Assembly (NCBI GenBank): GCA_030425045.1
Contig: JAUHVL010000013.1
Coordinates: 1-64,000 of the forward strand
DNA: 64,000 nucleotides
Source: a bacterium
GTDB lineage: Bacteria > Bdellovibrionota > Bacteriovoracia > Bacteriovoracales > Bacteriovoracaceae
Direction: 5' to 3'
The translations under genes and the position numbers were made by a program. The notes beneath the pieces are model-generated. The model was not told the DNA's origin. It saw only the letters and a program-made list of their open reading frames with translations, and did not search any database. Shown here piece by piece: positions 3,365-27,220 of this stretch (within the stretch, counting starts at the first letter, position 1; each line of letters begins with the position of its first letter).

Positions 3365-3877
3365 ATGAAATCGATAATGAGAAATAGCTTTAGCTTAAAA
3401 AAAATGTTTCTTATTTTGTGTATAAGTCTGAGCTCAACCACTTTTGCAGATACGGACGCCTTAACCTTACTTTATTTTATTAAACAAAATATTAGCTCTC
3501 AGGCCATTTGCCTTTACCAAGGAGTGAATAATCTCCAGGAGTGTGACGATGTAAACTCGGCCGAAGCAATCTGTATGTTAGGTGGTCGTAATAATTTATT
3601 AAAGTGTAAAGATGTTAAGCTACCCCAAGCACTCTGTATGTTAGGAGGAGCTTCCAGAGGACGCTCATCTTGTTCAAGTGTTACAAAAGTAGCTGAAGGT
3701 TTATGCCTAACAGATAAAAATAATAATAAAAATACATGTAAAGATGTAACTGAAGCTGAAGCGATCTGCCTAGCAGGTGGTCGTAATAATGGAACTTGCA
3801 AAGGGGTAAATTTGGTTCAAGCCTTATGCCTAGCTAATAGCAATAGCTCGAAAACTTCTTGTAGTTATAATAACTAA
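3365..3877 (+). CDS. Secreted protein with six tandem cysteine-pair repeats
   Basis: The 170-residue product has a signal peptide (about 1-28, ending TTFA) and a mature part made almost wholly of about 21-residue repeats of the form [AG][IL]C-x(9-11)-C-x-x-V. Cysteines fall at 49, 60, 70, 81, 91, 103, 114, 125, 135, 145, 155 and 166, so spacings are always 10-12. GGRNN recurs at 73-77 and 138-142. Such regularity suggests a disulfide-stabilised solenoid or a repeated ligand-binding unit outside the cytoplasm. I chose ATG 3365 because AAGGA lies 9 bases upstream and the signal peptide then has a short basic N-region; in-frame ATGs at 3356 and 3377 are alternatives. The family is unknown to me. 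The end overlaps the convergent gene by 4 bases. Confidence 0.85.
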   Translation: MKSIMRNSFSLKKMFLILCISLSSTTFADTDALTLLYFIKQNISSQAICLYQGVNNLQECDDVNSAEAICMLGGRNNLLKCKDVKLPQALCMLGGASRGRSSCSSVTKVAEGLCLTDKNNNKNTCKDVTEAEAICLAGGRNNGTCKGVNLVQALCLANSNSSKTSCSYNN

Positions 3878-5280
3878 ATTTCACAAGGAAATTCAAAGAG
3901 GCATTTCTCTTTCACTTCTTTTGCAACACATGCGGGAACCATTTTCTCCCAACCTTTTTCATTATTTTGAATCATTTTAAGGACAACTCGAGACCAAATC
4001 TTAAACGCATCCTGATTAAAGTCTTCTATGTCATGTATTAATTTCTCTTCTCTTAAATATTTTAATAATAAGTGTTGGTTGTCTGTTCTCTTAACTTCCA
4101 TACTTGATAAGATCATATTATTTTTTTCATTTAGCGCCGGATAAACAAATAGTCTCGTTCTTCTTGCAAGGAGGGCCCCCAAACTTCCAAGTATTCCACC
4201 AAAATGTTTTGAGTAGTTTTTCTCATCAAATACTTCCTGAAGATTATAAAAACCCATAGCATAGGCAATATCCATTTTCGTACACTGAGCAAGGTAATAA
4301 TTTAAATCTCCATAAGTTTCATAACTGGTGATAAGAGCGTGGTGACCGAGACTTCCCAATAAATCGACCCGAGCGAGAAAATCTTCAGAAATCACTTCCC
4401 CTCTTTCTTTGAGTTTATTCATCGAAATCTCAGGAAGAATAATAATATTATCCTTCTCTTTATCACCGAGTAATTCTGAAAATTTCTTATGCCCTTGTTC
4501 AAGCATATCAATATTAAACAAAGTTGGAGGTCGGTATGATCCACGACTTATCAGAATATTTTTTTTGTAAAGCTCATCTTTTGGCTGACAGGCATGTCCT
4601 TCTTGGTCGAACATGACTGCACCACAATAAGCCTGCTTCACCAGCTCTAGAAGCCATAAGCGCGTATCTGTTCCCTCAAATGCAGGACCTTGCGTATCGA
4701 TAAAGTCGATACTTAATCTTTCTTTTCCGAGGTAATCTAATAAGGCACTTATAAATGTTTCTCTATCTTTAGAATAGGTAAAACAAGAGTGAATTAAATT
4801 CGTTCCCAGGATTCCTAAAGCCTCTTGTTGTTGCAAATTGATCTGATCGAACATTTCAACATGAATAACAATTTGGCTCGCTTTTGCGTTTGGTTTGTGT
4901 TGAAAACGAACACCTAACCAACCATGCCCTGAAGTTTTATACTTAAAACTTGTGGCGGCGACAGTATCAGCAAAAACAAAAAAACAGGTTTCGTCACCCC
5001 TTGCCTTTTCAAGTCTTTGAACAAGCTGATCAAACTCACGGGCCAACATCCGCTCTAGTCTTTCTTTAGCGACATAACGATCAGACTTTCCATAAATTTC
5101 ATCACTAATGGCCATATCATAAGCCGACATCGACTTTGCAATGGTACCGGCCGCTCCTCCTGCTCGAAAAAACTGCCTGGCAACCTCTTGGCCGGCCCCA
5201 ATTTCAGCGAAGCTTCCGTAAATTTCCGGCCTTAAATTTATTTCAAATGCTTTTTGTCTTGGATCTAATCGCCTTTCCAT
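3874..5280 (-). CDS. Conserved protein of unknown function (often mislabelled TonB-dependent receptor)
   Basis: The 468-residue protein starts MERRLDPRQKAFEINLRP and carries AEIGAGQEVARQFFRAGGAA near residue 27 and SAYDMAISDEIYG near residue 52. These strings mark a widespread, highly conserved family that databases commonly name TonB-dependent receptor. There is no signal peptide, TonB box, plug or barrel pattern, so that name does not fit and a soluble cytoplasmic enzyme is more likely. The GAGQEVA stretch hints at a nucleotide- or cofactor-binding turn, but no catalytic role can be claimed. ATG 5280 follows GAGGAAGG. Confidence 0.88.
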   Translation of the reverse strand: MERRLDPRQKAFEINLRPEIYGSFAEIGAGQEVARQFFRAGGAAGTIAKSMSAYDMAISDEIYGKSDRYVAKERLERMLAREFDQLVQRLEKARGDETCFFVFADTVAATSFKYKTSGHGWLGVRFQHKPNAKASQIVIHVEMFDQINLQQQEALGILGTNLIHSCFTYSKDRETFISALLDYLGKERLSIDFIDTQGPAFEGTDTRLWLLELVKQAYCGAVMFDQEGHACQPKDELYKKNILISRGSYRPPTLFNIDMLEQGHKKFSELLGDKEKDNIIILPEISMNKLKERGEVISEDFLARVDLLGSLGHHALITSYETYGDLNYYLAQCTKMDIAYAMGFYNLQEVFDEKNYSKHFGGILGSLGALLARRTRLFVYPALNEKNNMILSSMEVKRTDNQHLLLKYLREEKLIHDIEDFNQDAFKIWSRVVLKMIQNNEKGWEKMVPACVAKEVKEKCLFEFPCEI

Positions 5281-17079: not shown

Positions 17080-17523
17080 ATGAAAAAGTTAGCATTGATT
17101 TTATCACTCGTATTTTTGGGACAAACTTATGCCGCTTCTTGGAAAACAAAGGCCATAGAGGAAACAGTTTATGCTGAGTTAGAAAATACTGTTCAACTTA
17201 AAACTTTTTTCATGAAAAAGAAAAAAAGTTCCGAATACTTTATCAACTCTTTAAAACAACTTACCTATCGAACTTTTTGGAATGAAAAAGTGGTTCAAGG
17301 AAGTGTTGATATTGAAGAGATTGCAACAGATGAACTGGAGTTCATTCTCGATAGAGAGTTTTCAGAAATCAATATTTCAACGTTAAAAACATTACCTGAA
17401 TTTGATAATCTTAGTTTTTATCTTGGTACACATGAGACGGCAAAAGAAAGCTGTATTGATTTACTATTGTTTGAGTGGAATACAAAAGAAGCTGCGTTGT
17501 ATTCAGAGTGCTTTGATAATTAA
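17080..17523 (+). CDS. Small exported protein of unknown function
   Basis: The 147-residue product starts at ATG 17080, 6 bases after AAGGA; an upstream in-frame ATG at 17041 would spoil the signal peptide. A clear signal sequence (1-18, ending QTYA) precedes a charged helical domain with two cysteines near the end (ESCIDLLLF and YSECFDN), possibly one disulfide. It overlaps the convergent zinc-finger gene by 4 bases. I do not recognise the family. Confidence 0.8.
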   Translation: MKKLALILSLVFLGQTYAASWKTKAIEETVYAELENTVQLKTFFMKKKKSSEYFINSLKQLTYRTFWNEKVVQGSVDIEEIATDELEFILDREFSEINISTLKTLPEFDNLSFYLGTHETAKESCIDLLLFEWNTKEAALYSECFDN

Positions 17524-18398
17524 TTTTTAACGACACCTTGAATTAATTCACCAAGTTTATAATTTGAGTAAAGTTCACCATCCAATGTGGGAAAACTTAA
17601 TATAGGGATTAGTGTTTCTTTGTCCTTAGAGGGTCCCTGCTTCAACGAGTAGCAAACGACTAAGTAATAAAATGAAATCGTATCTTTAACTTGGGCCTTG
17701 ATATAGGTAAAAATCTCGTCGCCTTCATCATCTTTTAATTTAAAAATTTCATCTGGGTTTTGCATTGTTGGGTCTAAATACTCTTCATATAAATGAAAAC
17801 TTTCAAAGGGTATATCTGCGGGCGATCTTTTATCGAGCATTTCGGCCAAATAAGAAGATTTTTTACTTTCAAGTAACGTCAGAGTCTCGGCATCAATTTC
17901 AAGAACACTAGATGACGAAGAAGATTTACTTATGCTCATTTCCGTTTTCGTTCCAACTTTAAACTTTTCTAATACTCTTTCATCTTCAGTGGCCGTCATA
18001 AAAAGAATAAATGAGGGTTTATCTGCATACATAAAAGATAACACAATTAGTGAGAATGACTTATCATGATCAATCTTAAACCTTTTTATTAAGGTGTAGA
18101 GTTTATCTTGAAACTCATTTTCTTGACACCAAATTTCATCTGGTGTGGTTAATAATTCATCAATTTTTTCATCATCACTTAAAAAATCAACTAAGTGTTT
18201 TTCATGTAAGTCTAGCTCACTTCTAAACTTTTTTTCTTCCGAATCATAATAGTCAACGAGCGGAGAGAAAAAACCTTCGATGCATTTATCACTGCAAAAG
18301 GACTTATTGGAGTCCTCTTCGACAAATAAAAACTCTGATAAGTTATGACTAATTTTTTTACACTGATAACAATAGAATACGAGTTTATTAGATAGCAA
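17520..18398 (-). CDS. Protein with N-terminal zinc-finger-like cysteines
   Basis: The 292-residue cytoplasmic protein begins with two cysteine pairs, CYQC (10-13) and CSDKC (35-39), which fit a small zinc ribbon. The rest is acidic, with a Ser-rich run (SISKSSSSSS near 155) and no recognisable catalytic motif. The start is TTG 18398, 6 bases after AAAGG. It lies 12 bases downstream of the barrel gene at 18411-19349, so the two are probably co-transcribed. The function is unknown. Confidence 0.8.
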   Translation of the reverse strand: MLSNKLVFYCYQCKKISHNLSEFLFVEEDSNKSFCSDKCIEGFFSPLVDYYDSEEKKFRSELDLHEKHLVDFLSDDEKIDELLTTPDEIWCQENEFQDKLYTLIKRFKIDHDKSFSLIVLSFMYADKPSFILFMTATEDERVLEKFKVGTKTEMSISKSSSSSSVLEIDAETLTLLESKKSSYLAEMLDKRSPADIPFESFHLYEEYLDPTMQNPDEIFKLKDDEGDEIFTYIKAQVKDTISFYYLVVCYSLKQGPSKDKETLIPILSFPTLDGELYSNYKLGELIQGVVKN

Positions 18399-18410: not shown

Positions 18411-19349
18411 TTATAGTGAGACACCAAAGTTTGCAAAAACCGAATTTCCATAAGCACCATGAAGAGACCACAGTCTGGCCCCCAGCAACTCAGCATCGTT
18501 TATTCTTCTAGTTCTAAAACTTGCACCGAGTTCAAGTAGCACAATAGGGCTTAAGTTTAATCCTAACTTAGGAATTACGGTAGCAAATTTTACTTTTTCT
18601 TCAAGCTTATTAGGCTTATCTGAACTTGAGCTTGAAATTGAATACATGTGGCCATCAACGGAGAATCGAATTTCATTCGATGTCATCCAACCTAAACTTG
18701 CTGAAAGTCGACTGATATTTCCAATTTCTAATTCCTCTTCAGAGTCAGCGTCTCCCGTTAAGCGAAGTTCGTAACCTAGACCTAAGGCCAATTGATTAAA
18801 CCTTTTTGCAGTTGTCACTCCAACAATTTGATCTGTCCGACTATGAGCGAATTCAGACTCTTGACCTAAACTCACTCCACCGTAAAAATCGACAAGAGCA
18901 ACTTCTGATGGGGGACCGAAACGAAGCCAATTTAAACCGAGGATCAGTTCGGGATTTCCTTTTTGACTTGATCCCCCCTCTGTCAAAAGCTCACTTGAAG
19001 AATCGGCCTGCCAGTATGAAGCATCAAGATACAAATTATAAGGAGTGTGAAACTTTCCTTTCAGACCCAGAAAATGAGCTTTCCCTGAGCCTTCAGAGAA
19101 CTTTGCTTCTACTGTTTTATACCAAGTCGACATACTCAACACTCTCTCTCCAGATCGTGCCGAACCTCTTCTGCTAACTTTTCTCGTACTTGTAGCTGCG
19201 GGAGCAGATTCTCTTGGTGCACTAACTCTTGATGCTCCTGAATTTTTTGGCTTGTATTCTGGTTCTGTATAGTCAACTAATGCGAAACAATTTGTGATAG
19301 ATAAAATTAAAGTGATAAAAAATGAATTGAATGCAGTTTTTCTTTCCAT
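18411..19349 (-). CDS. Outer-membrane beta-barrel protein of unknown function
   Basis: The 312-residue product starts at ATG 19349 behind GGGAG, giving a signal peptide (about 1-24, ending NCFA). A basic Ser/Pro/Ala-rich linker (about 30-70) precedes a domain of alternating hydrophobic strands typical of an 8-12 stranded barrel, ending in FANFGVSL. An in-frame ATG at 19391 would add 14 charged residues ahead of the signal peptide and is less likely. The zinc-finger gene follows 12 bases later. Confidence 0.8.
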   Translation of the reverse strand: MERKTAFNSFFITLILSITNCFALVDYTEPEYKPKNSGASRVSAPRESAPAATSTRKVSRRGSARSGERVLSMSTWYKTVEAKFSEGSGKAHFLGLKGKFHTPYNLYLDASYWQADSSSELLTEGGSSQKGNPELILGLNWLRFGPPSEVALVDFYGGVSLGQESEFAHSRTDQIVGVTTAKRFNQLALGLGYELRLTGDADSEEELEIGNISRLSASLGWMTSNEIRFSVDGHMYSISSSSSDKPNKLEEKVKFATVIPKLGLNLSPIVLLELGASFRTRRINDAELLGARLWSLHGAYGNSVFANFGVSL

Positions 19350-19619
19350 GATTGCTTGCTCCCTCTTCCTAATGGACAACAATTCCTTCATCTATTCTAC
19401 CTAAGTTTATCAATTTATCCAATTGTCCGACTCTTTCAATCACCTTTAATTGCAGTAAAACTTACATACCTTCAATAGCTTAGAAAGGTCTTTTTGAAAG
19501 ATAGAAGTTTTAAGGAATTTTAGACACATTTCGTAGGTAAAGCTTACCCGACTTATTCTTAATACTGATGATTGATAGGATTAAAGAGAGAAGAAACAAG
19601 TTGTATCACGGAGGTTCAT

Positions 19620-19922
19620 TTGGAGTTTTTTCACAAAGACAGTCAATCTATCAAATCTTTAGTAGAATTAGGTGTACATGGGTTTTTCCCCCTGTTTGAA
19701 GATCACTGGCAAGGTACTATGGAATTTTCCAAAAAAAGTCTCACTGGTAAAGAAAAAGTACAAGCAAAAAAACTCTTCTCTAGAATTGCGGGCCACCGTG
19801 GAATTAATAGAAAAAAAACTATCGTCATGAGCATGAGTGAAGATGAAAGAAACCTTCTTGCTAGGGCCTTTATGAAAATGGTTGAAATGAAAATTTTAGA
19901 CTCCAAACCAGGACTTCAATGA
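19620..19922 (+). CDS. Small cytoplasmic protein of unknown function
   Basis: I place the start at TTG 19620, 5 bases after the strong site CGGAGG; an earlier in-frame TTG at 19572 has no good site. The 100-residue product has a HWQGTMEFSKKSL stretch and a basic helical region (KKLFSRIAGHRGINRKKTI), so nucleic-acid contact is possible. It overlaps the next gene in an ATGA arrangement, opening a four-gene operon with a periplasmic protein, the coiled-coil-sHSP fusion and a lipin-like phosphatase. The family is not recognised. Confidence 0.7.
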   Translation: MEFFHKDSQSIKSLVELGVHGFFPLFEDHWQGTMEFSKKSLTGKEKVQAKKLFSRIAGHRGINRKKTIVMSMSEDERNLLARAFMKMVEMKILDSKPGLQ

Positions 19923-20203
19923 AAGTATTAACTCTCATATTAACAAGCGTACTAACATTAAGTGTATTCGCTGAATATAGGGTTTATCAGTATCACATCA
20001 AATCAAGAAACATTTATAGTTTTGATCAAAAGTCATATATCGTCACATCAAATTTAGATCCTGTAAGTTACCTCGCCTACCACGGTGGAGAAGGTAGCTT
20101 AAAAATAGACCTGCTAAGAACCTGGGTTTGCTATGGACAAACTTCAGGAAGAAACTATTGCAACCCGCCTATCGAGTCCAAAGGAGATGGTGCTAGCCCT
20201 TGA
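19919..20203 (+). CDS. Small exported protein of unknown function
   Basis: The 94-residue product has a signal peptide (about 1-18, ending SVFA) and a short mature domain with two cysteines (TWVCYGQTSGRNYCNPP) that could form a disulfide. The start ATG overlaps the previous stop (ATGA), and the stop overlaps the next gene's TTG start (TTGA), so translation is probably coupled throughout. The function is unknown. Confidence 0.75.
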   Translation: MKVLTLILTSVLTLSVFAEYRVYQYHIKSRNIYSFDQKSYIVTSNLDPVSYLAYHGGEGSLKIDLLRTWVCYGQTSGRNYCNPPIESKGDGASP

Positions 20204-21390
20204 AAGTCGATCAGCAGACTATTGAGTTAAACAAACAAAGGATTGAGGATCTCAACCGCAATCAAAAGAATTATATCAAGGCAAGAGAAAAAGAACTTGA
20301 CGGTGTTAAGCTGTTCCACCAAAAACGTATTGCTGATACAAAAACCTCTAATGAACTCGACCTCATTGATGTCCGTAATACTAATGAACAAAAGTTCATT
20401 AAAGAAAATGAAGGCCATCAAGAAAAGTTAACAAAACTTAAAGAAAATCAAGATCAGCTCAAAAAAGTTCTCACGAGAGAGAAAGAACAACTTGAAGGTA
20501 ATCAACGAGAATCGTTAAAAAATATTAACGAACAATACCAAGAAAAGATTATTGATGCCCACTACAAAGGCAGAGAAAAAGAACTCGAAGTTAATAATAA
20601 AATCAATGAAACCATTAAAGATTTTGAATCTGATCGCAATGCTAGTCTTACAAAACTAAAAAACAAAAATCTTAATACACTTGTCTTAGCTGAAGCTGAT
20701 CAAAAGAGAAAAGTTAATGATGTTCAAAATGCTCTTGATAGAGAGCTACTCCAAAAGAGACTTGAGTTTACTAAACAAATATTAGATCAAAAATCACTTC
20801 ACAATAAGAAAGTTGATCAAATTACAAATGAAAATACGTGGGAAATAAAACAACGAGAGGACTCACATAATTATAATTTGAAAGATCAACAGAATAGACA
20901 TGCAGAACACCTGAAGTCAGATAAAGCGGCTTTTGACGAGAAATTTAAGAAGCTTGTCGAGAATCAACAAAATGCTATCAATGAGCTAGAAACAAAACTA
21001 GCTAAACAAACACAGAGTCTTAAAGAATCACATAGTAATAACTTTAAACATAGCCAAACAGTTCTTACAGATCCTTTTTATAGGATTACAAAATTAAATC
21101 CTAAAGTTATTGAGAAGCCAGACTCGTATATAATTAGTATAGAAACTCCAGAACATGAAAAGGATAAGTTCACTGTTTCAGTCAATAAAAGAAAGATAAG
21201 GTTTAACCTGGCCCGCAGAATGGAGGACAGGATTGAGAACCAAGATAGCAAAAACAATAACACGGTCTATACAGGACATCGAACAGAAAGCTATACCAAA
21301 GAATTTCATGTGGATCATATTCTTGAACCACGAAATGTAACCCATAAATGGGAGAATGGTCAGCTTTACTTTAAAATCAAAAAAGCTTAA
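20200..21390 (+). CDS. Long coiled-coil protein with C-terminal Hsp20/alpha-crystallin-like domain
   Basis: The 396-residue product is almost entirely charged helix from about 1 to 285, with heptad-like Lys/Glu/Gln/Leu patterns typical of a long coiled coil. Residues about 290-396 look like an alpha-crystallin domain: YIISIETPEHEKDKFTVSV, a basic insert, TKEFHVDHILEPRNVTHKWE, and NGQLYFKIKKA, which corresponds to the conserved end strand of small heat-shock proteins. The N-terminal arm of a normal small heat-shock protein is short, so this fusion is unusual. The start is TTG 20200 with AAGGAG 13 bases upstream and a 4-base overlap with the previous gene. The chaperone role is inferred. Confidence 0.82.
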   Translation: MKVDQQTIELNKQRIEDLNRNQKNYIKAREKELDGVKLFHQKRIADTKTSNELDLIDVRNTNEQKFIKENEGHQEKLTKLKENQDQLKKVLTREKEQLEGNQRESLKNINEQYQEKIIDAHYKGREKELEVNNKINETIKDFESDRNASLTKLKNKNLNTLVLAEADQKRKVNDVQNALDRELLQKRLEFTKQILDQKSLHNKKVDQITNENTWEIKQREDSHNYNLKDQQNRHAEHLKSDKAAFDEKFKKLVENQQNAINELETKLAKQTQSLKESHSNNFKHSQTVLTDPFYRITKLNPKVIEKPDSYIISIETPEHEKDKFTVSVNKRKIRFNLARRMEDRIENQDSKNNNTVYTGHRTESYTKEFHVDHILEPRNVTHKWENGQLYFKIKKA

Positions 21391-21400
21391 AACATAAGAT

Positions 21401-22570
21401 ATGAAACGACCTCATATCGTTCACTTTTTATCCGTTATAACAGAAGAACATCTTCATATCAGATGCTCTGTTACCTTAAAAGACTCCCCTCCTCTCAATG
21501 AAGATAAAACAGTTCAGAATATGGCCATTGGACTTGTAAAAGGAATTGAAAAAGAATTACCAAAACCAAGTTTTCCCATACAAGCCTATCAACTTCTTGG
21601 AAGTTATGAGTTTCAAATAAAAGTGATTGGACTCAAAGATACTCATCAGGAAGTTTATAAAAAAACATTGGAAACGGACTCTTTTGGAAACTTGAACTTT
21701 AAAGTTCCACTCAATGAAGCGAGAAGAGAAATTTCTGTGTTACAAATTTATGAAGTGGGCCATCTGTCTGGAGTGGAACTTCACCTTGGAACTTTTATAC
21801 CTCTTACGATTCATCATCCTAAAAAACTCGTGATCAGTGACTTTGATAAAACACTTGTGGATACTCGTTATTCAACGACAACTGAACTTTATACCTCTCT
21901 CACTAAACCTGTAGAGTATTTCCCAACGGTACCCGGAAGTGTAAGCCTTATTAAAAGTTATATTAACCGTGGCTATCACCCTTTTATACTTTCAGCATCT
22001 CCGCATTTTTATGAAGATGCCATGAGGGACTGGCTCTATAAAAATCAAATTTTCACAGCAGGGATTTTTCTCAAAGATTATAGAAAGGTTTTTTCAATAC
22101 TCGAGGGAGACCTAACCCCAAAAGATCTTAAAGTTCAGGGTATTTATAAATTTAACCACCTACTCGATATAATTTTGATGACAGGGCTTCCTGATAAACT
22201 CGTCCTCATGGGTGATAATTTTGAAGCTGACCCTATTATCTATTTAACATTAACAAGAATCATCATTGATAAGATCGAACCTTTTCATATGTGGAACCTT
22301 TTAAAAGGCCATGAGTCTTTTCAAATGAGTCAAAAGCAAAAATCACAGTTCTTAAGTAAGCTTTATCAAATAGCGACAATGGTCAAGGCCAGAAGCGCAG
22401 CCGAGAAAACAGAAATTAAAATCTATATCAGAAAAAAAGCCGGTGATGATCGCTTTGAAGCGCCTCACTTTTTAAAAGATTTTCAAAACTATGTTGAGTT
22501 ATACGAAGGTAATCCCGAGTTTAACGATAAAAAAGTAATTCCGGAGCAAACAGAACCACAAAACCAATAG
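21401..22570 (+). CDS. Lipin/App1-type phosphatase-domain protein
   Basis: The 389-residue cytoplasmic protein has a C-terminal HAD-superfamily domain of the DUF2183/App1 (phosphatidate phosphatase) type. DxDxT is ISDFDKT (Asp147, Asp149, Thr151), motif II is HPFILSASPHF, and motif IV is LMGDNFEADP. The N-terminal 130 residues form a strand-rich domain as in App1 relatives. It probably dephosphorylates a phosphorylated lipid. It is the last gene of the 19620-22570 operon, and its final 50 bases overlap the convergent small membrane protein. A second, exported relative lies at 26423-27220. Confidence 0.85.
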   Translation: MKRPHIVHFLSVITEEHLHIRCSVTLKDSPPLNEDKTVQNMAIGLVKGIEKELPKPSFPIQAYQLLGSYEFQIKVIGLKDTHQEVYKKTLETDSFGNLNFKVPLNEARREISVLQIYEVGHLSGVELHLGTFIPLTIHHPKKLVISDFDKTLVDTRYSTTTELYTSLTKPVEYFPTVPGSVSLIKSYINRGYHPFILSASPHFYEDAMRDWLYKNQIFTAGIFLKDYRKVFSILEGDLTPKDLKVQGIYKFNHLLDIILMTGLPDKLVLMGDNFEADPIIYLTLTRIIIDKIEPFHMWNLLKGHESFQMSQKQKSQFLSKLYQIATMVKARSAAEKTEIKIYIRKKAGDDRFEAPHFLKDFQNYVELYEGNPEFNDKKVIPEQTEPQNQ

Positions 22571-25973: not shown

Positions 25974-26423
25974 TTAAAGGTCTTTTCTTAAAATAATTCG
26001 TAGTTTACCACTAGAATTTATCACTGTTCCTAAAATTGAAAATCCCGATTTAATATTGAGACAAATCATTTCTTTAAAATTATTACTCGTTTTTGTTTCA
26101 ACAGATCTGTAACCTTTCTCTTTTAAATACTCATGTTGTTGAGTCATTAATTTCTTACCAATCCCCTGACCTCTCAATTCAGGATGGACTCCTCCAAGCC
26201 AACTGTAAAAAACCGTTTGTTTTTTTTCATACCCCATCTTAAAACCGACAAGTTTTTTATCTTGATAAGCAAGTATTGTGAAAAGGTTATTTTTGGTGGA
26301 AGATTCATAGTGAAATGAATCTAGACTTTCAGGGCTTTCGTTAAAGATTACATTTTTAAAATTAGAAATCTCATCAAAAATATCTTTGTTATAACCTTTT
26401 ATATTTTTAAAAGAAAGTTCCAT
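25974..26423 (-). CDS. GNAT-family N-acetyltransferase
   Basis: The 149-residue protein starts at ATG 26423, which overlaps the stop of the upstream phosphatase gene (TAATG), so translation is likely coupled. The acetyl-CoA-binding motif is GVHPELRGQGIGKKLM (R-x-x-G-x-G form), followed by ETKTSNNFKEMICLNIKSGF, the usual region before the last strands. The acceptor substrate is unknown. An in-frame codon at 26465 would extend the protein into the upstream gene and is less likely. Confidence 0.88.
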   Translation of the reverse strand: MELSFKNIKGYNKDIFDEISNFKNVIFNESPESLDSFHYESSTKNNLFTILAYQDKKLVGFKMGYEKKQTVFYSWLGGVHPELRGQGIGKKLMTQQHEYLKEKGYRSVETKTSNNFKEMICLNIKSGFSILGTVINSSGKLRIILRKDL

Positions 26424-27220
26424 TACAGTCTCTGGTGATAATCTTGCCAAAGGTTTTTTGCCCACATTTCAGCAGTGTCTTCACAATACAATATACCTTC
26501 AAGAGCACATTCCACATCTTTAATTCTTTTTTCTAAAGTTTTGAACGTGTATCGTGGAATTAATTTTTGACTTTTATACTGAGCTTCAATACTTGTTAAA
26601 ATATCGTTTGATAAATAGTAAAAATGTTCAAAGTCTCTCAACTCCATTTCACTAAAAAAATAATTGAGACCTGGAATCTTTTGAACCTCCCATCCCGTTT
26701 GCCAATAAGTCGCATAGGTTGAAACATCACGAATATAAATTTGAGAGTCTTTGATATTCATATCATTTACAATATCGTGATAGACTTTTGGATCTTGATC
26801 AGAATTATCTCCAAATAAGAACAACTTTAAATCATTTGAGTTTTCTTTTGATAACACACTCTTAAGGCTTCTATATTTGTATTGATAAGTTTTACCATCT
26901 CCAATTTTTCTTAAGATCGTTCTTCCAAACGGAAAATCGTGTTTATCTAACCATTTTTCTTGATTAAAAGTAGCATCATAAGCAGCACTCAAATAAAGAA
27001 ACTCCACCTCTTCACCTTGAGACTCATAATATGTTTTTATTTCGTTATAAAGCTTGGACATTTCCACATAGGGATCAGCTTTTAAAAAATACCAAACAAC
27101 AGAAACACTGTTTGTTGAGTTTGCTTTTTTGATTGTATCGTCAATATCACTAATGACGAGAACTTTGGCCTTAACACTAAAAAAGAAGACACTAAGCGCC
27201 ATAACTATAATCGATTTCAT
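26423..27220 (-). CDS. Exported lipin/App1-type phosphatase
   Basis: The 265-residue protein has a signal peptide (1-18, ending SVKA) directly followed by the HAD DxDxT motif ISDIDDTIK (Asp25, Asp27). Motif II is FLYLSAAYDATF and motif IV is LFGDNSDQDPKVY, as in DUF2183/App1 phosphatidate phosphatases. With its signal peptide it should act on lipid or phosphorylated substrates in the periplasm. Its ATG follows AAGGAGTGAGTTA. It is translationally coupled to a GNAT gene. A cytoplasmic relative is encoded at 21401-22570. Confidence 0.87.
   Translation of the reverse strand: MKSIIVMALSVFFFSVKAKVLVISDIDDTIKKANSTNSVSVVWYFLKADPYVEMSKLYNEIKTYYESQGEEVEFLYLSAAYDATFNQEKWLDKHDFPFGRTILRKIGDGKTYQYKYRSLKSVLSKENSNDLKLFLFGDNSDQDPKVYHDIVNDMNIKDSQIYIRDVSTYATYWQTGWEVQKIPGLNYFFSEMELRDFEHFYYLSNDILTSIEAQYKSQKLIPRYTFKTLEKRIKDVECALEGILYCEDTAEMWAKNLWQDYHQRL

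Follow-up and report, generated by a model that had tools for sequence, protein, structure and literature searches.

The window analysed here, a 64,000-nucleotide stretch of contig JAUHVL010000013.1 from a member of the Bacteriovoracaceae (Bdellovibrionota), encodes a protein that couples a single long predicted helix, at a constant register, to an alpha-crystallin domain (ACD) at its C-terminus. We refer to this protein as rod-ACD. Its gene, the two parts of its product and the genes around it are the following:

17520..18398, minus strand: divergent gene for a PBECR2-domain protein, made of two similar halves, with an N-terminal CxxC...C finger-like motif in the window's family
18411..19391, minus strand: accessory gene for a secreted or outer-membrane-like protein, without a Pfam match
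19620..19922, plus strand: small helical protein of about 100 residues, with a TTG start favoured by the orthologues and by a GGAGG just upstream
19919..20203, plus strand: small exported protein of 94 residues, without a Pfam match, with a signal peptide, the mature end AEYRV, an invariant Trp and two Cys residues
20200..21390, plus strand: rod-ACD gene, 396 residues, TTG start
20215..21069, plus strand: long hendecad coiled coil (residues 6-290), predicted helix with an 11/3 period, phase locked to the ACD
21070..21387, plus strand: alpha-crystallin (HSP20) domain, opening with a DxFY motif and ending at the last beta strand
21401..22570, plus strand: APP1-type (lipin-like) phosphatase (Pfam APP1_cat, E=2.6e-9) with intact HAD motifs

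The TTG start of the rod-ACD gene agrees with the MKV/MKI start of most orthologues, and no signal peptide was detected in the product, which comprises a coil of about 285 residues followed by a C-terminal ACD of about 106 residues. The full-length window protein falls below the Pfam HSP20 threshold, but its isolated C-terminus (21064-21387) matches the model (E=1.2e-4; 22.5 bits, the gathering score being 20.8), as do 29 of the 46 orthologues scanned at full length (best 3.4e-10). AlphaFold2, run on 46 orthologues, predicts a single helix over residues 6-290 (pLDDT mostly 75-95, lower towards both ends) and then a beta-sandwich, for which Foldseek searches of the PDB with either the full model or the domain alone returned small heat-shock protein (sHSP) and alpha-crystallin ACDs as the best matches, and a few other HSP20-like folds, e.g., the CS domain of USP19, in lower rows. 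A profile search of PDB sequences recovered sHSPs only (best 3.1e-11). The hallmark sHSP positions are kept, viz., the GxL motif in the last strand and the conserved Arg in beta5. In the window's family the chain ends 0-2 residues after the ACD and the C-terminal IXI extension is absent; outside it, a few lineages have tails after the ACD, some of them with loose IXI-like matches. The sequence-only reading of this locus had described a coiled coil of some 285 residues ahead of an alpha-crystallin-like domain, an architecture unlike that of normal small heat-shock proteins, and both points are borne out by the modelled helix, the HSP20 matches and the length of the coil. The same fusion also recurs beyond the window, its protein being matched in 110 of the 129 genomes of the same family.

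No informative name for the proteins examined came from NCBIfam, PADLOC or PHROGs, weak matches to ZorA and DrmMII being read as coiled-coil or chance similarity. Eukaryotic NudC and the CS-domain proteins likewise combine a coiled coil with an HSP20-like beta-sandwich, as rod-ACD does, with a much shorter coil in NudC. A closer affinity of the C-terminal domain to CS than to HSP20 was not seen: the one orthologue that matched Pfam CS (7.9e-5) scored better with HSP20 (2.1e-8), which is the recurrent match in the Pfam scans.

The long coil predicted on first reading stands, and its type proves to be hendecad. Hydrophobic residues recur with a period of 3.65-3.67 residues in the alignment of 46 members (power 29, with 95% of shuffles below 8), whereas the heptad period is at background (power 1.9). 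When the 53 full-length orthologues are analysed individually, 52 show the same best period (the exception being L085), and the median 11/3 power in a comparison set of 404 unrelated ORFs is 0.86. Counted from the DxFY motif, the phase is identical in 53 orthologues (resultant length 0.96), and in successive 77-residue windows it holds to about 300 residues from the ACD in most of them, with shifts at the extreme N-terminus of long coils and a weak signal in some of these windows. Common descent by itself predicts some of the phase agreement next to the ACD; the persistence of the phase at a distance, among lineages whose coils range from 240 to 452 residues, is more telling. Past its first eight residues, the coil shows no internal indel among members of the window's family. 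The coil is free of Pro throughout its length, and hydrophobic residues are enriched at about 3-4 of every 11 positions, a pattern more in keeping with a coiled-coil core than with the broad face of a lipid-binding 11-mer helix, an alternative that we consider less likely. With their register locked, these proteins also provide naturally occurring hendecad coils over a wide span of lengths, from about 240 to 450 residues.

Ala occupies 2 of the 76 core positions in the window protein and 3-7% of them in the family. Ala-poor hendecad cores need higher oligomers (PMC9858780), a rule that favours three or more chains for rod-ACD over a simple dimer. Long rods built largely of hendecads also occur in FilP and Scy of the actinobacterial DivIVA superfamily, but these have Ala-rich cores and a DivIVA motif at the N-terminus (PMC9858780), whereas the core of rod-ACD is Ala-poor and its added domain is the C-terminal ACD; Pfam scans of the window protein and its orthologues gave no match to the DivIVA motif. 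A 2023 survey of hendecad families, known here through its citation in PMC11676326, may mention the rod-ACD protein.

Rod-ACD is present in most Bdellovibrionota. The family profile matches 332 of the 369 genomes of the phylum at E<=0.001, many of the weak matches being plain Hsp20. Among the 242 genomes that are at least 90% complete, 227 are matched by the ACD profile, with a best E below 1e-16 in about 195 and a weaker or absent match in 47 (counted by hand from the table). In the genomes opened, the gap at a best E of 1e-16 separates rod-ACD well from plain Hsp20, and one further genome (G241) has a genuine rod-ACD cut by the contig end. Plain Hsp20 genes are also present in the genomes checked. 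No relative emerged when contigs were scanned with the window protein; a further search gave six named Bdellovibrio relatives, including B. bacteriovorus strain kdesi. An orthologue of 427 residues lies at about 1.2015 Mb in a genome (G132) that we take to be that of B. bacteriovorus HD100, and counting genes back from pilA places its tag at an estimated Bd1265-1270. In a Pseudobdellovibrio-like genus the coil is short and non-hendecad and the ACD is kept. One genome of this genus (G173), presumably that of Pseudobdellovibrio exovorus JSS, has a rod-ACD gene (3741-4145 of locus L214) that consists of a 134-residue coil with no ACD detectable downstream in six frames, and its PBECR2-domain, small and exported genes are intact.

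The rod-ACD gene belongs to a conserved neighbourhood. Across 54 loci from many families, which are not independent since several come from one genus, 52 have the PBECR2-domain gene within 6 kb of rod-ACD, 48 the small gene and 47 the gene for the exported two-Cys protein; the two small proteins that had been assigned to its operon are thus recovered as conserved partners. The usual order is a PBECR2-domain gene divergent from a series running from the small through the exported to the rod-ACD gene, which comes last. The exported gene overlaps the start of rod-ACD by 4 bp, an arrangement shared by roughly half of the loci in the window's family. Profile searches of the PDB with the three partner proteins gave no match. 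The PBECR2 model is matched at E=3.4e-9 by the window gene and at 9e-21 by the HD100 orthologue; the name derives from nuclease folds, and catalysis by these proteins is putative. Most members of this family outside the window's family end in SSH/H, and most members of the small family outside the window have a C-terminal His. The listed ORF for the small protein starts at 19572, upstream of the start adopted here. A Pfam match of the small protein to a viral VP30 model (3e-4), barely over the cut-off, was treated as chance.

Some genomes without a strong ACD match keep the PBECR2-domain and small genes, the other two being absent, and others have the exported gene elsewhere, e.g., beside a TatC-like gene. 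The module is thus not an obligate unit. Loci of family f14 (L210 3286-3630, L211 3401-3754, L212 3827-4171 and L223 3143-3493) have the gene for the exported two-Cys protein next to a TatC-like gene and one for a conserved 121-residue helical protein, and contain neither rod-ACD nor the PBECR2-domain gene.

With the chances in our judgement about evenly balanced, we propose that rod-ACD is a stiff multi-chain cytoplasmic rod whose clustered ACD heads serve as a scaffold or tether. With bulky, Ala-poor cores, the hendecad helices would assemble, almost without twist, into bundles of at least three chains. The resulting stiff rod, with some 26 repeats and a length of about 43 nm in the window protein, would gather several ACD heads at one end. 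Ordinary sHSP cages are closed by a C-terminal IXI tail; as these heads have none, the peptide groove and the dimer edge would remain open to partner strands or to other heads, such that copies might be linked into a network or partner proteins held at a set distance. The chain number and the parallel packing of the rod are what we infer, the modelled AlphaFold2 monomer having a pTM of 0.30. Counting against the scaffold is the Pseudobdellovibrio-like genus, whose retention of the ACD with a short non-hendecad coil suggests that the long rod is not always needed. A protein of the proposed kind would be a scaffold or tether with chaperone-type heads rather than a free, stress-induced holdase.

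The latter is what rod-ACD would be if it were an ordinary small heat-shock protein acting in general stress, its N-terminal region being a long coil that sets oligomer size and its neighbours incidental. The ACD fold, the GxL motif and the beta5 Arg, which it has in common with the Hsp20/alpha-crystallin proteins (Pfam PF00011), speak for this reading. The remainder of the molecule departs from theirs, with a 285-residue hendecad helix in place of the short, variable and flexible N-terminal region, about twice the usual size and, in the window's family, no IXI extension. A coil register conserved over hundreds of residues is unlike the variable N-terminal regions of sHSPs, and a syntenic partner set recurs across families. 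Moreover, the genomes checked have separate plain Hsp20 genes, so that rod-ACD is not a general holdase by default, and we consider this explanation unlikely. A narrower chaperone role is conceivable, in which rod-ACD is dedicated to the exported two-Cys protein encoded upstream and keeps it unfolded before export. Where both genes occur they are almost always neighbours, with the 4-bp overlap noted above, and several reduced genomes without rod-ACD are likewise devoid of the exported gene, though they keep the PBECR2-domain and small genes. However, two families (f13 and f14) have the exported protein without an adjoining rod-ACD, in f14 beside the TatC-like gene, and conversely f26, f20 and G241 have rod-ACD with no exported gene detected beside it, making such a dedicated partnership quite improbable.

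Rod-ACD might alternatively be an intermediate-filament-like cytoskeletal protein, its rods joined end to end via the ACD heads into filaments under the membrane, in a role like that of Ccrp. The long Pro-free coil and heads able to pair would suit this, and Ccrp of Bdellovibrio bacteriovorus, a long coiled-coil protein from the same phylum, has a mechanical role and prevents cell indentation, according to the title of the work cited in PMC8938487. Ccrp and the intermediate-filament-like proteins are, however, heptad-based rods, in contrast to the 11/3 period of rod-ACD. The place expected in HD100 for Bd2697, which we presume to be the Ccrp tag, is occupied by a different, Ala-rich coil of 407 residues with a signal peptide, no 11/3 period and no ACD, and the HD100 orthologue of rod-ACD, at 1.20 Mb, lies off that place. 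Its identification with Ccrp was accordingly set aside; rod-ACD is probably not Ccrp itself, which tells against the filament reading, and we hold that reading to be rather unlikely.

Returning to the scaffold, a more specific version of it takes in the partner genes: rod-ACD and the small, exported and PBECR2-domain proteins may together form a scaffold system, a spatial organiser at the border of cytoplasm and envelope in which rod length would act as a lineage-set spacer, and which would have been trimmed or lost in the small-genome and Pseudobdellovibrio-like lineages. We advance this version tentatively, as a possibility that is doubtful at present. A link of the chaperone to a membrane or filament function had already been suggested from the operon context; with a signal peptide in one partner and none in the rod, such a tie is conceivable.

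Rod-ACD itself combines known domains. Of greater interest is the gene module at the level of the phylum, a multi-gene unit widespread in a group known for predation, with a function not described in the literature searched. Rod-ACD also presents a chaperone domain permanently tied to an apparent rigid spacer, which differs from the known working of sHSPs. Literature searches of partial coverage for Bdellovibrio together with Hsp20 or coiled coils, for Bd2697 and for the likely HD100 tags returned nothing relevant, and the main text of a Tn-seq study of HD100 type contains no Bd12xx tag. The presence of an orthologue in HD100, within the genetically tractable B. bacteriovorus, renders the question of function testable.

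Two of the remaining neighbours are accessory. The lipin-like phosphatase that had been counted as part of the operon does adjoin rod-ACD downstream, but it lies outside the conserved core: it accompanies rod-ACD in 19 of the 21 loci from the window's family and in 0 of the 33 others. The secreted or outer-membrane-like protein encoded at 18411..19391 is comparably restricted (15 of the 21 family loci, 0 of the 33 others). A second, shorter APP1-type phosphatase (26423-27220; Pfam APP1_cat, E=8.7e-20) is encoded on the opposite strand 4 kb from the first, and between 22899 and 25700, after the APP1 gene, lie three genes whose predicted products resemble the binding protein, ATPase and permease of a phosphonate-type ABC importer.
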